A DNA stretch of 64,000 bases from Sneathiella sp. HT1-7. Lineage in GTDB: Bacteria; Pseudomonadota; Alphaproteobacteria; Sneathiellales; Sneathiellaceae. Positions 2,306-60,588 of the stretch are shown here, piece by piece (position 1 is the first letter of the stretch; each line of letters begins with the position of its first letter). The translations under genes were made by a program, and so were the position numbers. Location: assembly GCF_020731145.1 (NCBI RefSeq), contig NZ_JAJFZN010000005.1, positions 186,001 to 250,000 of the forward strand, written 5' to 3'. A model generated the notes under the pieces. It did no database searches. It had not been told where the DNA came from and saw only the letters and a list, made by a program, of their open reading frames with translations.

Positions 2306-3046
2306 ATGTCGGCGTTGGTCATACGAAAAGATATCGATGGCATAGCTATATTGAGCCTGAACCGGCCGGATGCGTTAAATGCCCTTAGTCCATCACTGTT
2401 TGTGGAACTTCATGAGCATGTGAAGACGCTTTCACAGGAAACGGAAAGCATCGGCTGTGTTATCCTGCGCGGGGAAGGACGGTCTTTCTCGGCGGGAAAC
2501 GACTTAAAGGCCATGCAGGCAGGGGAGGCGGCACCGCATCCGCGGTTTCAGGCAGAAACTATCGAAATGATTGAGGATCTGCCGCAGCCGGTTATCGCCG
2601 AGGTCCGGGGGCACTGCTATACCGGAGCTTTGGAACTCGCGCTCGCCAGTGATCTGACGATTTGTAGTGAAAGTGCGAAATTTGCTGACACCCATGGCAA
2701 ATGGGCATTGACCCCACTTTGGGGGATGAGTCAGCGGTTGCCGAGGCGGATTGGTGTTCTGAATGCGAAAGAAATGATGTTTACGGGGCGTGTGGTCAGT
2801 GGGACTGAGGCTGCTGAAATCGGGCTGGTCAATAAATGCGTGCCTGATTCTGAGCTGTCAGACGCCACATTGGAGATGGCACACGCAATTGTCGAGAACT
2901 CGTGGCACACCCTCCGTGCGGATAAAATGCTGGTCAATAAGGGCCAAAACTATGGCCTGAAAGACGGGCTAAATTTCGAACGGGAAAATAGCCCGGGCCG
3001 GGCCACTGGGGATGATGAACGGCTATCAGGTTTCAAGAAAGTCTGA
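2306..3046 (+). CDS. enoyl-CoA hydratase/isomerase family protein
   Basis: A crotonase-fold protein of 246 residues. The oxyanion-hole segments are visible as GEGRSFSAGNDLKAM (about residues 56-70) and RGHCYTGALELALASDL (about 101-117), followed by the usual GLVNKCVPD segment. The catalytic Glu expected after GGG in classical hydratases is hard to place because the second motif reads YTGALE rather than GGGCE. It could therefore be a hydratase, isomerase or hydrolase acting on an acyl-CoA. It follows the transporter gene by 3 nt. Together with 3-hydroxyisobutyrate dehydrogenase upstream it suggests branched-chain acyl-CoA catabolism, although the specific step is not determined. Confidence 0.82.
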   Translation: MSALVIRKDIDGIAILSLNRPDALNALSPSLFVELHEHVKTLSQETESIGCVILRGEGRSFSAGNDLKAMQAGEAAPHPRFQAETIEMIEDLPQPVIAEVRGHCYTGALELALASDLTICSESAKFADTHGKWALTPLWGMSQRLPRRIGVLNAKEMMFTGRVVSGTEAAEIGLVNKCVPDSELSDATLEMAHAIVENSWHTLRADKMLVNKGQNYGLKDGLNFERENSPGRATGDDERLSGFKKV

Positions 3047-56002: not shown

Positions 56003-57475
56003 CTAGCACTCCACGACGTTAACGGCAAGGCCACCTTGCGAGGTTTCCTTATATTTGCTGAGCATATCGACGCCGGTCTGGCGCATCGTCTCGATCACCT
56101 CATCAAGAGATACCACATGCGTGCCGTCACCGGACAGCGCGAGGCGGCAGGCATTAATCGCCTTCATCGCGCCCATGGTATTGCGTTCGATGCAGGGGAT
56201 CTGCACTAATCCGCCGATCGGATCGCAGGTCAAACCAAGATTATGCTCCATGCCGATCTCAGCGGCATTTTCCACCTGTTCGTTCGTGCCTCCCAGAACG
56301 GCGGTAAGGGCACCTGCAGCCATGGAACAGGCGACCCCCACTTCCCCCTGACACCCCATTTCTGCGGCGGAGATTGATGCGCGTTTTTTATAGATTGCGC
56401 CAATTGCTGCTGCGGTGAGCAGGAAATTGCGCGTCCCCTCCTTTGTGACGCCGGGGCAGAAGCGTTGGTAATATTTAAGTACCGCGGGAATTACCCCGGC
56501 CGCACCATTTGTGGGAGCCGTCACCACTCGCCCACCGGCGGCGTTCTCCTCATTGACGGCGAGGGCGTAGAGATTAACCCAGTCAAGAACGGTCAGTGGA
56601 TCGCGGGAGGCGCGCTCCGGATTTTCCATTAAGTCTTGATACAACGCGTTTGCCCGGCGCTTTACCTTAAGGCCGCCCGGCAGGATACCCTCTCCCTCGC
56701 AGCCCCTCTTGATGCAGTTGATCATGGCTTCATTGACATCATCAAGGAAGGCGAAGGTTTCTTCCTCACTTCGCCAACTGCTTTCATTGGCAAGCATCAT
56801 CTCAGCAATGGTGAGGCCGCTTTCCTTGCCCATATCGAGAAGTTCGTCTGCGGAGGTGAAAGGATAGGGTAGCACAATGTTATGACCCTTCGTTTCTGCC
56901 CTGTCCCCTTCGTTGTGAGAGACAACATATCCGCCTCCCACGGAGAAATAGTCCCGGCAGAAAAGCTGCGCACCCTTTGCATCATAGGCATAGAACCGCA
57001 TGCCGTTAGAATGTTCAGGAAGGAGTTGATCTTTCAGGAAAAGGAGACTTTGGTCCTCAAAAAAGGGAATTATACGATGTCCGTTTAGTGAAATTTCCCC
57101 GCTTGTCCGTATTTTGTCGATAAGCGGTTGTACTTTCTCCGGATCAACGGAGGAAGGGCGTTCCCCACTTAGTCCAAGAAGAATAGCAATGTCCGTCGCA
57201 TGACCGGCGCCAGTGAGAGCAAGCGAGCCATAAAGCTCGACCAGCAGACGATCGGTCGAATCAAGTAAATCCTCTGACGCTAGACGATCGACGAAACGCT
57301 TTGCCGCCCGCATGGGCCCCACGGTATGGGAGCTTGATGGGCCAATACCGATTGTATAAAGATCGGTTACGCTGATGTTGATATCCAACTGAGACGTTGG
57401 GTTAGGCGGTGCAGTTGGCTTTGATGGTACAACTGGCGTAACGTTGCCAAGGCCGGGTTTGGATGGTTTTGTCAT
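56003..57475 (-). CDS. sdaA: L-serine ammonia-lyase (4Fe-4S, single chain)
   Basis: 490 residues. The beta-type N-terminal domain ([30 protein letters not shown], in pieces) is fused to the alpha-type catalytic domain with Fe-S cysteines in [18 protein letters not shown] and [18 protein letters not shown]. It deaminates L-serine to pyruvate. The N-terminal 35 residues are Pro-rich and probably disordered. A tandem glycine riboswitch lies in its 5' leader, so it seems to be coupled to glycine (via serine hydroxymethyltransferase), which fits glycine overflow. Confidence 0.93.
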
Positions 57476-57534: not shown

Positions 57535-57711
57535 CTCTGTCCGGTTACCTGAAAGATTACGTCGACATATCGCCGACTTACCTCTTCGGTGATGCGTTAG
57601 CCATGGCCTCAGCATACTCTCCAGAGCCCTCTTTCCTGACGGTACATGTGCCTGAGAGTTTCCGGGGCGGTTGCTCCTTCGGCGCCGGTAAGTCCGGTCT
57701 CTCCCATCAGG
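57535..57711 (-). promoter_or_regulatory. tandem glycine riboswitch in the sdaA leader
   Basis: Two glycine aptamers are read on the minus strand. Aptamer I (57635-57711): P1 CCTGATGG/CCGTCAGG, with GGGAGAGACCGG, GCGCCGAAGGAGCAA and GAAACTCTCAGGCA, all strongly conserved gcvT-type segments. Aptamer II (57535-57626): P1 CTCTG/CAGAG with GGAGAGT, CACCGAAGAGGTAAG and CTTTCAGGTAACCGGAC. The linker is 8 nt. The expression platform follows to the sdaA ATG at 57475 and contains TGGTGAATTTTTCACCA (a short hairpin) and a ribosome site. Glycine binding would be expected to turn sdaA on. Confidence 0.93.
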
Positions 57712-57802
57712 ATAATCAAGGAATGCCAGCATAGTCCGGCAATTCACATAGACCTTAGAGACCGCGCTTTGGCATTGTCAAGTCCGGGCCTTCCGAAATG
57801 GA

Positions 57803-58138
57803 TCAACGGGTGCCGTATTTCAAAACCCAAAGGGGTAGCAATGCCGCGACATCAGCGCTTTTTTCATCGAGTTCCACCGCCGTTGTCATCTCATCTTCAT
57901 CAATTCGCACGATGCGTCCGCCAAATCGGCACATTTCTGGGGAGCCAACGGGCCCGATAATTCCTTCGACAGTTTGATCAAGTATAACATGGTCTGCGAT
58001 ACCGTTTAGCAGCATTCCGTCAAGCGACCAGTTCTCTGTCGAAAACCGAATGCCCTCAATTTCTACGCTGAGGACCGGGTTTGATACGCGAAAGGCCCCA
58101 CGTTTTTCGAATCTGTTTGCAACAGATTGTGTGTTCAT
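57803..58138 (-). CDS. PilZ-domain protein
   Basis: About 111 residues. A PilZ-type barrel: an RFEKRGAFRVS N-terminal segment fits the RxxxR c-di-GMP motif, and STENWSLDGMLLNG corresponds to the (D/N)xSxxG motif. The rest (IIGPVGSPEMCRFGGRIVRI) is beta. It may bind cyclic di-GMP. It is the only c-di-GMP-type protein in the window and could affect motility. ATG at 58138 or 58153; no strong choice. Confidence 0.75.
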   Translation of the reverse strand: MNTQSVANRFEKRGAFRVSNPVLSVEIEGIRFSTENWSLDGMLLNGIADHVILDQTVEGIIGPVGSPEMCRFGGRIVRIDEDEMTTAVELDEKSADVAALLPLWVLKYGTR

Positions 58139-58153
58139 TTCAGCTTGCAGCAC

Positions 58154-58538
58154 GAATAGTCTCCATAAAAATTTATCTACTCATCGAGTATGCAGCCTTT
58201 GTGCCAGTATCAAGGGAAAGGTAAAAAGTCTGTATTTCTTCGCTTTTTCGTTCCTTTGAGAGACGGACAGGAGTGATGCGATATAGGTAAGCGGTCAAAT
58301 TTTCCCGCTCTGTAGGAAATAATAGCCGGGCATATTGGGTCTGGTTTGATGGAAATTATAAGCAATAAAGAGAATCATGTTTTGTGAATCGGGGTGAGAT
58401 CACATTGTTTTGAGCCCAAATCTGATCTAATGCCGATATCTCTGAATTTTTTTTAATGAGCACCCAAAGGTAATAATATTATGTTTTTCAATGATTTTTC
58501 GCAATAATGCTGCAGGTGCGAAATAAAAAAATGAAATT
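58154..58538. other. gene-free AT-rich region
   Basis: About 385 nt with stops in all frames and no convincing gene, tRNA or hairpin terminator. It precedes the palindrome and the triple stem-loop array in front of the nitronate monooxygenase gene. Confidence 0.5.
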
Positions 58539-58561
58539 TTGTCAATAATGACAATTTGTCA
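58539..58561. promoter_or_regulatory. operator-like palindrome TTGTCA-N4-TGACAA plus third half-site
   Basis: TTGTCAATAATGACAA (58539-58554) is a perfect inverted repeat with a 4-nt spacer, followed at once by a third TTGTCA (58556-58561). It lies 32 nt before the stem-loop array and about 200 nt before the nitronate monooxygenase start. It looks like a repressor or activator site; the regulator is unknown. Confidence 0.5.
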
Positions 58562-58592
58562 TCTTTGAAAAAGCCTGCTAAGAAAATGCCCA

Positions 58593-58721
58593 AGCCGGGT
58601 AACTGAGCGAAAAGATTCAGGCTTGGCTAAATAATTAAAAGGTCGGGTAACTGGGCGCAAGATCCAGACTTAGCTCAACCATCCATAGCCAAGTAACTGG
58701 GCGTAAGATCCAGGCTTGGCT
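58593..58721 (+). repeat. three tandem covarying stem-loop units upstream of the nitronate monooxygenase gene
   Basis: Units at 58593-58628, 58641-58675 and 58687-58721 (36, 35, 35 nt; spacers 12 and 11 nt). Each has an outer stem AGCC(A/G)(A/G)G...CTTGGCT, a TAA bulge, a 4-bp inner stem and a conserved loop GCGNAAGAT. The inner stem is CTGA/TCAG in unit 1 and CTGG/CCAG in units 2 and 3, a compensatory change. The outer stem is G-U in unit 1 and A-U in unit 3. This suggests selection on RNA (or cruciform) structure. The last unit ends 33 nt before the ATG. I do not recognise the motif. Confidence 0.7.
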
Positions 58722-58754
58722 ATATTTATCCCAGTATCAGGAGTCATCTCGTAA

Positions 58755-59726
58755 ATGACAATGCCGACCGTTCTGGAAGGGCGTCTTTCTCTCCCAGTTA
58801 TTGCATCACCAATGTTTATTGTATCCGGGCCTGAACTGGTAATTGCTCAGTGCAAGCAGGGCATCGTCGGATCTTTTCCTGCTCTTAATGCAAGGCCGAT
58901 TTCTCAGCTTGACGAATGGCTCTTTCAGATCAAGTCAGAACTTGCTGACTATGCGGCGGCGAATCCTGACAAGAAGGTCGCCCCCTTTGCTGTCAATCAG
59001 ATTGTACATGCGTCAAATACTCGTTTGGAGGAAGATGTTGCACTCTGCGTTAAGCATGAAGTGCCGATTATCATCACGAGCCTTCGGGCCCCGAATGAAA
59101 TTGTTGAGGCGATACATTCTTACGGCGGAATTATCCTGCATGACGTGACTACCATCCGCCATGCCCAAAAGGCATTGGAAGCAGGCGTCGATGGTTTAAT
59201 TCTGGTTTGCGCGGGCGCTGGCGGGCATGCGGGGCGGTTAAGTCCGTTCGCGCTTGTCTCCGAAGTGCGGCAGTTCTTTGATGGGCCGATTGCTCTTTCC
59301 GGGGCCATTGCGAATGGCCGATCAATCCTTGCAGCCCAGGCAATGGGCGCGGATCTCGCCTATATGGGGAGTGCATTTATCGCTACCAAAGAAGCCAACG
59401 CGGTAGACGACTACAAAAATATGATCGTTGAAAGCACAGGCGAGGATATTCTCTATACGAACACCTTTACCGGCGTTCACGGTAACTATTTGCGCCCCAG
59501 TGTGGAAAAAGCGGGGCTTGATCCGGAGAATTTGCCGGGTGCCGATAAAAGCCGGATGAATTTCGGCAGCGGTAGTACGGGTAAATCGAAAGCCTGGAAA
59601 GACATATGGGGTTCCGGGCAGGGAATTGGCAGCGTAAGCGATGTGCCAAGTGTTGAAGAATATGTTGATCGCTTAAAAGAACAGTATGCCCAGGCCAAGG
59701 CTGAAATCAATAATAAGGCCATTTAG
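58755..59726 (+). CDS. nitronate monooxygenase family FMN enzyme
   Basis: 323 residues, an FMN TIM barrel: N-terminal LPVIASPMFIVSGPELVIAQCKQG with the flavin-binding PM motif, catalytic-His region in NAIHDVTT-type segment GIILHDVTTIRHAQKAL, GAGGHAGRL (FMN phosphate), and AGALALSG-like segment ALSGAIANGRSILAAQAMGADLAYMGSAF (pieces). The family oxidises alkyl nitronates such as propionate-3-nitronate, or reduces enoyl groups. It stands alone behind the triple stem-loop array. Confidence 0.88.
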   Translation: MTMPTVLEGRLSLPVIASPMFIVSGPELVIAQCKQGIVGSFPALNARPISQLDEWLFQIKSELADYAAANPDKKVAPFAVNQIVHASNTRLEEDVALCVKHEVPIIITSLRAPNEIVEAIHSYGGIILHDVTTIRHAQKALEAGVDGLILVCAGAGGHAGRLSPFALVSEVRQFFDGPIALSGAIANGRSILAAQAMGADLAYMGSAFIATKEANAVDDYKNMIVESTGEDILYTNTFTGVHGNYLRPSVEKAGLDPENLPGADKSRMNFGSGSTGKSKAWKDIWGSGQGIGSVSDVPSVEEYVDRLKEQYAQAKAEINNKAI

Positions 59727-59736
59727 ACTGAATTTT

Positions 59737-59768
59737 CCCTCACCCTAACGGGTGGGGGTAATTTCTTC
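59737..59768 (+). terminator. probable intrinsic terminator after the nitronate monooxygenase gene
   Basis: CCCTCACCC (59737-59745) pairs with GGGTGGGGG (59750-59758), loop TAAC, then TAATTTCTT. The tail is only partly T-rich. Confidence 0.6.
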
Positions 59769-59810: not shown

Positions 59811-60002
59811 TCAGCGCCGAACGGTGATTGGCGCGCTGCTACCGGTTGTTTCCCGGATGATATCCCGGATATTAGATGTGCATTTTGCACATTGTGGTGC
59901 TGCTCCCAGTGTTTCATAGACATTTGCGATGCGTTGCGCACCTGAGGCGACGGCGCTTTTAATGTCTCTATCAGTCAATCCATTACAAAGGCAAATATAC
60001 AT
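59811..60002 (-). CDS. bfd: bacterioferritin-associated ferredoxin Bfd
   Basis: 63 residues with the Bfd 2Fe-2S ligands: CLCNG at the N-terminus (C4, C6) and CAKC (about residues 38-41). It reduces bacterioferritin haem to release stored iron. A Fur-type box lies 24-36 nt before its ATG, and bfr lies 120 nt upstream on the same strand. Confidence 0.92.
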   Translation of the reverse strand: MYICLCNGLTDRDIKSAVASGAQRIANVYETLGAAPQCAKCTSNIRDIIRETTGSSAPITVRR

Positions 60003-60120: not shown

Positions 60121-60588
60121 TTAGGAAACTTGTGACTGAACGTAGTTTTGAAGTCCCATCTTCTCAATTAGGCCAAGCTGGGTTTCCAGCCAATCAATAT
60201 GCTCCTCTTCAGATTCAAGGATATCGACCAGCAAATCGCGGGATACGTAGTCCTGCTTGCTTTCGCAATCTTTGATGGCCGCTTTTAAATCGACGTGAGC
60301 GACATGCTCCATTTTAAGGTCGCATTCGATGATTTCCCCGACGTCTTCGCCAATCATCAACTTGCCGAGATCCTGCAGGTTTGGAAGACCTTCTAAGAAG
60401 AGCACCCGTTTGATGAGCTTGTCTGCATGCTTCATCTCATCGACGGATTCTTCATATTCTTTCTCGCCTAATTCTTTAAGGCCCCAGTCTTCAAGCATGC
60501 GAGCATGCAGGAAATATTGATTAATGGCCGTCAATTCATTCTTTAGAATGACGTTAAGATGCTTGATAATTGACGTGTCGCCTTTCAT
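60121..60588 (-). CDS. bfr: bacterioferritin
   Basis: 155 residues of four-helix ferritin fold. Ferroxidase ligands E18, E51, H54, E94, E127 and H130 are all present, and M52 (in DEMKHAD) is the axial haem ligand. It stores iron in a 24-subunit shell. The bfd gene follows 118 nt downstream on the same strand. Confidence 0.95.

Follow-up and report, generated by a model that had tools for sequence, protein, structure and literature searches.

A tandem hairpin array upstream of a nitronate monooxygenase gene in Sneathiella: the probable 5' module of a genus-specific RNA gene

The three hairpins at positions 58593-58721 of the window (the whole stretch of 64,000 nucleotides of Sneathiella sp. 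HT1-7 DNA that was analysed) are conserved RNA structures. The array probably forms the 5' part of an RNA gene specific to the genus, inside which the open reading frame (ORF) of a nitronate monooxygenase-like enzyme (NMO) was most likely placed in one clade. Judging from the genome sequences, Sneathiella, a marine genus, appears to carry this RNA once per genome, and the RNA looks like a previously undescribed one. Two forms of the locus are found in the genus. The NMO form, with one to four hairpins, is present in 13 of the 24 genomes, and the NMO-less form, with a single hairpin, in 10 genomes and in the MAG L111. The occurrence of the same hairpin at 13 close NMO orthologues and at 11 loci lacking NMO is the decisive reason for judging the hairpins to be real.

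The units of the array are all on the forward strand and occupy positions 58593-58628 (36 nt), 58641-58675 (35 nt, with one mismatch in the outer stem) and 58687-58721 (35 nt, the most stable of the three). Their starts are 48 and then 46 nt apart. The NMO start codon, an ATG at 58755, follows the array at a distance of 33 nt, and the array is situated in a gap of about 600 nt that begins after the ORF at 57803-58153. The initial annotation had given the same three units, coordinates, spacing, distance to the ATG and gap, all of which proved exact on re-checking. Its fold was correct in having a 7 bp outer stem and a 4 bp inner stem in each unit, as well as the unit-2 mismatch, but its "TAA" bulge and its single loop have been revised. 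Folding and comparison show that in the units of the NMO form the first base of "TAA" is able to pair with the base opposite, which is G or A in all 22 distinct units, so that AA is the constant bulge. The loop is resolved into a C-G pair closing a GNAA-type loop, and a bulged A. Relative to shuffled sequences, the folding z-scores are -3.1 for unit 1 and -4.8 for unit 3, while unit 2 folds no better than its own shuffles (-0.45). The z-score of the whole array is -3.6, and that of the opposite strand is -1.7.

A covariance model of the three window units (R1) found 26 units at E<=0.01, situated upstream of all 13 close-orthologue NMO loci. The copy numbers at these loci (L009-L021) are 3, 3, 3, 4, 2, 3, 1, 1, 1, 1, 2, 1 and 1, and the last hairpin always ends 32-35 nt before the ATG. 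R1 had no match at E<=5 at any of the 17 further NMO loci covered by the search (L022-L038). Locus L019 has a degenerate middle hairpin (2553-2578, reverse strand, E 0.88) between two intact ones, an array unit in decay. A second model (R2), built from the 26 NMO-form units, finds NMO-less genomes as well, namely G003, G016 and G032 at 44-48 bits and G011, G006 and G010 weakly. All R2 matches above 24 bits in the 24 genomes of the genus are at this one locus. At E<=1, R2 has no match in four genomes of the genus (G004, G008, G014 and G033), and absence of the hairpin elsewhere is therefore not proven. When 385 genomes of the class were searched with R2, ten of other genera gave matches at E<=0.1, of 19-25 bits, which are treated as chance because model matches within the genus reach 42-95 bits. 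A loose pattern, GTAACTGNGCGNNAAGAT with two mismatches, was discarded as too unspecific, having 178 matches in 30 genomes compared to 142 for the reversed pattern.

The alignment of the hairpins shows strong covariation. In the 26 NMO-form units, 22 of which are distinct, 97.1% of the cells are paired and 5 of 14 pairs are doubly changed, a value that none of 500 shuffles attained. The 11 NMO-less hairpins have 84.8% of their cells paired. Double changes affect 9 of their 15 pairs, a value reached by 3 of 1000 shuffles, and 19 of their cells, as opposed to 5.6 in the shuffles (none of 1000 as high). The two innermost outer pairs are weak in these hairpins, being standard in 6 of 11 and 4 of 10 cases. 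Upon combining the 11 NMO-less hairpins with the 22 distinct NMO-form units in an alignment of 33 rows placed by hand, 92.8% of the cells were found to be paired and 11 of 15 pairs to be doubly changed, with none of 1000 shuffles as high. The compensatory changes noted earlier within the window array are in agreement with this covariation across 24 loci, which, together with the absence of an Rfam match, also supports the earlier proposal of a candidate new regulatory RNA. The invariant letters of a MAFFT alignment, AA of the bulge, C, and AAGA, identical in 14 of 14 rows, belong exclusively to the bulge and loop.

A probable promoter is situated directly upstream of the array at 58556-58584 (forward strand). 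It consists of TTGTCA (58556-58561), a 17 nt spacer ending in TGC, and TAAGAA (58579-58584). The same arrangement, with TTGTCA, a 17 nt spacer that has TGN at its end and a hexamer that starts with TA, is found at all 24 loci of both forms. Transcription from this conserved, sigma-70-like promoter should include the array, and the start is estimated to be near 58590-58592. A generic promoter scanner did not include 58556-58584 in its list. The covariance-model search proposed in the initial annotation has yielded homologous hairpins that lie at a fixed place and covary, and the promoter, with the start as estimated, is upstream of the array; homologues at random positions or without covariation, or a start downstream of the array, had been named there as evidence against an RNA.

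The -35 element is overlapped by a conserved DNA block, TGTCAATAATGACAATTTGTCA (58540-58561, forward strand), whose overlapping inverted repeats and pattern conservation suggest an operator. The upstream block TGTCAANAATGACAANTTGTCA, with at most one mismatch, was found at one place each in 23 of the 24 genus genomes, the exception being G005, a genome 66% complete; the reversed-pattern control gave none. In 9 of the 10 NMO-less genomes the block is exact. The exact promoter palindrome occurs once in the window's own genome, and with at most one mismatch it occurs 10 times per strand, compared to 5 in the control. Another inverted repeat, TTTCGCAATAATGCTGCAGGTGCGAAA at 58497-58523, upstream of the promoter, is found with small changes in the NMO-form loci and is not obvious in the NMO-less loci read. 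Downstream of the NMO gene, and convergent to its transcript, are a bfd-like [2Fe-2S] gene (59811-60002, reverse strand) and a ferritin-like gene (60121-60588, reverse strand). Within the stretches examined, a bfd homologue lies near 4 of the 11 NMO-less loci (G011, G003, G010 and L111). Iron or Rrf2-type regulation of the promoter, an idea raised by these neighbours, was rejected in that no regulon is visible; the promoter palindrome, the one feature examined for an iron link, gave it no support. No match to the Iron-Rhodo-box (PMC4618611) is claimed.

It is very improbable that the hairpins are sites in DNA, either operator repeats or REP-like mobile repeats, and not RNA. Their tandem arrangement in variable number and the operator-like palindrome upstream would agree with such sites. 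However, the G-U pairs and compensatory changes preserve an RNA helix and not a DNA palindrome, the sense strand folds better, the R2 matches above 24 bits in the 24 genomes of the genus are confined to this locus, and the hairpins are downstream of the predicted promoter. A role for the hairpin solely as a 5' stabiliser, guarding the transcript from 5'-dependent decay without any specific partner, is unlikely too. The hairpin does begin within a few nucleotides of the estimated start in both forms, but protection alone has no need of the invariant unpaired letters, and extra internal copies would add nothing to it. The unpaired letters that never vary, and the position of the hairpin at the extreme 5' end, point to a protein that contacts it specifically, perhaps with protection of the 5' end in addition.

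The NMO-less loci have the same promoter and one hairpin, lack the NMO gene, and extend over 248-456 nt to a conserved tail and terminator. The hairpin begins a few nucleotides after the promoter and is followed by a middle part of 128-331 nt that can hardly be aligned, by the 3' element and by the terminator. The latter was recognised by pattern in 10 loci and by eye in G003, and is thus present in all 11. At 456 nt, of which the middle accounts for 331, L095 in G016 is the longest NMO-less form and the sole one with a weak NMO match of 30 aa. All 11 loci are adjoined by a homologue (49-61%) of the ORF at 57803-58153, which has no Pfam match, and 10 of them by an acyl-CoA dehydrogenase gene, G016 having a LysR gene instead on its short contig. 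A scan of genomes of named species with the exact upstream pattern gave 19 stretches, 16 of which are identical over 150 nt to genomes in the set. It added one new locus (L111), and two more (L119 and L121) look unrelated.

No ORF is shared by the 11 NMO-less RNAs, in which the ORFs preceded by a ribosome-site-like stretch have 13-51 codons, counting first starts only. All 11 loci are thereby predicted from sequence to have what defines a small RNA, namely a promoter of their own, an intrinsic terminator and no conserved ORF. A downstream gene of one pathway, as regularly follows a cis-regulatory riboswitch, is not found consistently: NMO follows 13 loci, and the other 11 have no shared ORF on that strand ahead of a terminator. 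Runs of at least four ARN triplets number 12 in the NMO-less RNAs, compared to 3.2 in shuffles (0 of 500 as high), with none in 3 of the 11, and the window's own genome encodes Hfq. Together with the promoter, the lack of a shared ORF and the terminator, these runs favour an Hfq-type small RNA. Class II Hfq-binding small RNAs combine an ARN motif with a terminator. The NMO-less RNAs resemble them in their enriched ARN runs, their intrinsic terminator and the presence of Hfq, to which they may bind, and differ from them in having a long variable middle and a special 5' hairpin.

The NMO-like gene (NMO/FabK family; Pfam PF03060, E 8.8e-26) occupies 58755-59726 on the forward strand and encodes 323 aa. 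In this clade it is situated between the 5' and the 3' RNA elements. Some relative of it is found in all 24 genomes of the genus, and close orthologues (87-100%) in 13. The 3' element, ATGCCCAGGCCAAGGCTGAAATCAATAATAAGGCC (59686-59720, forward strand), coincides here mainly with NMO codons 312-322, and its motif is also present in the NMO-less loci. It is followed in both forms by an intrinsic terminator with a T-rich tail (59737-59768, forward strand; stem 59737-59758). Few gaps are needed to align the end of NMO with the 3' ends of most NMO-less RNAs, the element having diverged in G014 and G033. For codons 312-323 the synonymous codon identity is 0.90, compared to 0.54 expected and to a gene average of 0.49. 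This is the maximum of 312 overlapping windows of codons (z 4.3, for 13 NMO genes with near-identical ones included).

A covariance model of the 3' element (R3) was built from 18 of the 24 3' ends, omitting G010, G014, G033 and the near-identical NMO rows G035, G007 and G015; a hand count among the rows used 20 of the 24. R3 matches 21 of the 24 genomes once each, with 42-95 bits, including 87 bits at 59686-59768 in the window. G033 gave only 29 bits, and G014 and G005 had no match at E<=0.001. R3 also matched 33 genomes of other genera at E<=0.01 in the sample of 385 class genomes, which includes 5 of this genus; none of the 33 exceeds 30.6 bits, and these matches are likewise treated as chance. 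Among them is a candidate in G404, of the other genus of the family, with 30.6 bits, rejected as a terminator behind a glutamine-synthetase-like gene, as recognised by translation. A 3' pseudoknot (TGCC/GGCA with AGGCC/GGCCT) can be modelled as a possibility, with 90-91% of cells pairing and no covariation above that of shuffles.

The Rfam scan that had been proposed with the initial annotation was run with cmscan at gathering score on the window and the 11 NMO-less loci, and gave no match to the array or to these loci. The only matches in the window are one tRNA and a tandem glycine riboswitch. The latter (RF00504, 43.0 and 70.2 bits) is at 57535-57716 on the reverse strand and precedes an L-serine dehydratase gene (56003-57475), not glycine-cleavage genes. 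Two permissive scans covered one stretch each, and that of 58160-58800 at E<=10 gave no guanidine-II (mini-ykkC) match. The earlier comparison with mini-ykkC arrays holds in that a 5' leader contains several small hairpins that are alike, and extends to nothing beyond the repetition. The terminal loop of guanidine-II is ACGR. The 26 NMO-form units and the 11 NMO-less hairpins have terminal loops of GNAA, NNNAA or longer, and an AA bulge in addition. The letters ACGA or ACGG are found in 2 of the 37 hairpins (G011 and G003), in which they extend across stem and loop and do not form the loop. Furthermore, whereas guanidine-II has two stem-loops that dimerise by their loops (PMC5486947), the copies here number one to four with single ones common, no guanidine genes are found, and some loci have no gene behind them.

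Other known systems are similar in part. VcdRP of Vibrio cholerae, a dual-function small RNA (PMC8672173), likewise has coding and regulatory parts in one transcript, but there the small RNA encodes a small protein, whereas here the ORF of a 323-aa enzyme is inside an RNA that lacks a shared ORF in related species. The small RNAs derived from the 3' ends of mRNAs (reviewed in PMC9438474) likewise have a conserved element and terminator overlapping the coding end, but here, in sister species, the element is also the 3' end of a locus that stands alone and has a promoter of its own. A search for literature joining "Sneathiella" and "small RNA" found nothing in the collection of papers covered. 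In searches on Sneathiella, on NMO with riboswitch and on candidate structured RNAs, none of the matches listed is on this locus according to titles and the first lines of abstracts.

A tree of FlhA from 23 of 25 genomes (G012 and G016 had no match, and three sequences are partial) places the NMO form in one clade with a support of 97/97, 12 of its 13 genomes being present. The NMO-less rows and G005 are on one side of a weakly supported branch (67/81). The NMO-less genomes may thus be a sister clade, and with so weak a branch either direction of change is compatible with the tree. Elsewhere in their sequence, 9 of the 10 NMO-less genomes encode an NMO orthologue of 60-64% identity, the exception being G016, which is 56% complete. 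The same search did not find this class in the 13 NMO-form genomes, where the next relatives have 52% identity or less. In G011 (L026) this NMO is adjoined by a divergent TetR-family gene, its likely regulator, and palindromes of the TGGACA..TGTCC type were seen by eye upstream of the 60-64% homologues (L022-L030). The nine homologues, as well as an orthologue from the other genus (63%), end without the 3' element and have no hairpin before them. The NMO tree included 26 of 30 loci (L032, L033, L037 and L038 were not captured) and later the G404 orthologue. The simplest reading is that in one clade the RNA gene received an NMO ORF, whose C-terminus was then supplied by the 3' element of the RNA. 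Horizontal replacement, or a loss in the opposite direction, is possible.

The tie to NMO that was drawn in the initial annotation is not the essence of the locus, as 11 of 24 loci lack NMO, arrays are found in one clade and a second element is present at the 3' end. A cis-regulatory leader or riboswitch, in which the hairpins would bind a metabolite or protein and control NMO, and the NMO-less copies would be leftovers of gene loss, is conceivable but doubtful. The constant distance from the last hairpin to the ATG at all 13 loci and the restriction of multi-unit arrays to the NMO clade speak for such a leader. It does not account for the 11 hairpins with compensatory changes and no NMO gene, the conserved 3' element, the near lack of NMO remnants at these loci or the nine homologues devoid of the hairpin.

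When NMO was compared to the 11 NMO-less RNAs with tblastn, the matches were mainly to the shared 11-aa motif. A weak match in G016 covers 30 aa (NMO residues 293-322, 40%, E 0.007), and those in L111 and G003 cover 15-16 aa, slightly beyond the motif; a short NMO remnant is possible in these three RNAs. Such extensions, the reading of the 3' motif as the NMO C-terminus, the presence of both forms at one syntenic place and the compatibility of an NMO-form ancestor with the FlhA tree would all suit decayed NMO genes, from which the ORF was deleted and the functionless ends linger. This is nevertheless quite improbable: within the NMO-less group alone, 9 of 15 hairpin pairs show compensatory changes on both sides, the promoter block is exact in 9 of 10 genomes and the terminators are kept, and the absence of the motif from the outgroup and TetR-linked NMOs makes it unlike an old NMO C-terminus.

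On the preferred reading, that of an NMO ORF placed inside an RNA gene, the ancestor was most probably an RNA that is not translated, with a length of about 250-320 nt (456 nt in one genome). Its gene would have had a conserved promoter containing a palindrome of operator type, a single hairpin at the 5' end with invariant bulge and loop letters, a fast-changing middle, a conserved A-rich 3' element and an intrinsic terminator. The NMO-less RNA would be an Hfq-type small regulatory RNA, with a 5' hairpin that binds a protein or protects the 5' end. The NMO ORF would have been relocated into the middle of the RNA gene in the clade to which the present genome belongs. The NMO mRNA would have retained the promoter, the 5' hairpin and the 3' element, the last of which now supplies its final codons; the hairpin would subsequently have been duplicated to up to four copies. 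The NMO transcript may be both an mRNA and the carrier of the RNA, or its source after cleavage. Transcription, non-coding function, Hfq binding, the partner of the hairpin and the direction of change are all inferred here from sequence. The chances are about even that an enzyme gene was grafted into a regulatory RNA gene so that one transcript is now both, the last 11-12 codons of the enzyme being the old 3' element, still under nucleotide-level selection, and its 5' untranslated region the old head, amplified into tandem copies.

If this is true, a non-coding RNA has been caught in the act of becoming an mRNA while keeping its RNA function. The locus would also represent an additional family of structured RNAs, one in which covariation is clear and the contact letters are invariant. 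Sister species that share the RNA ends, with or without a 323-codon ORF between them, would constitute a natural experiment, in which it can be tested whether an RNA is able to keep a regulatory role as an mRNA, and how the 3' end of a coding sequence can serve at the same time as an RNA element. A "leader array" can be mistaken for a riboswitch when one clade alone is viewed.
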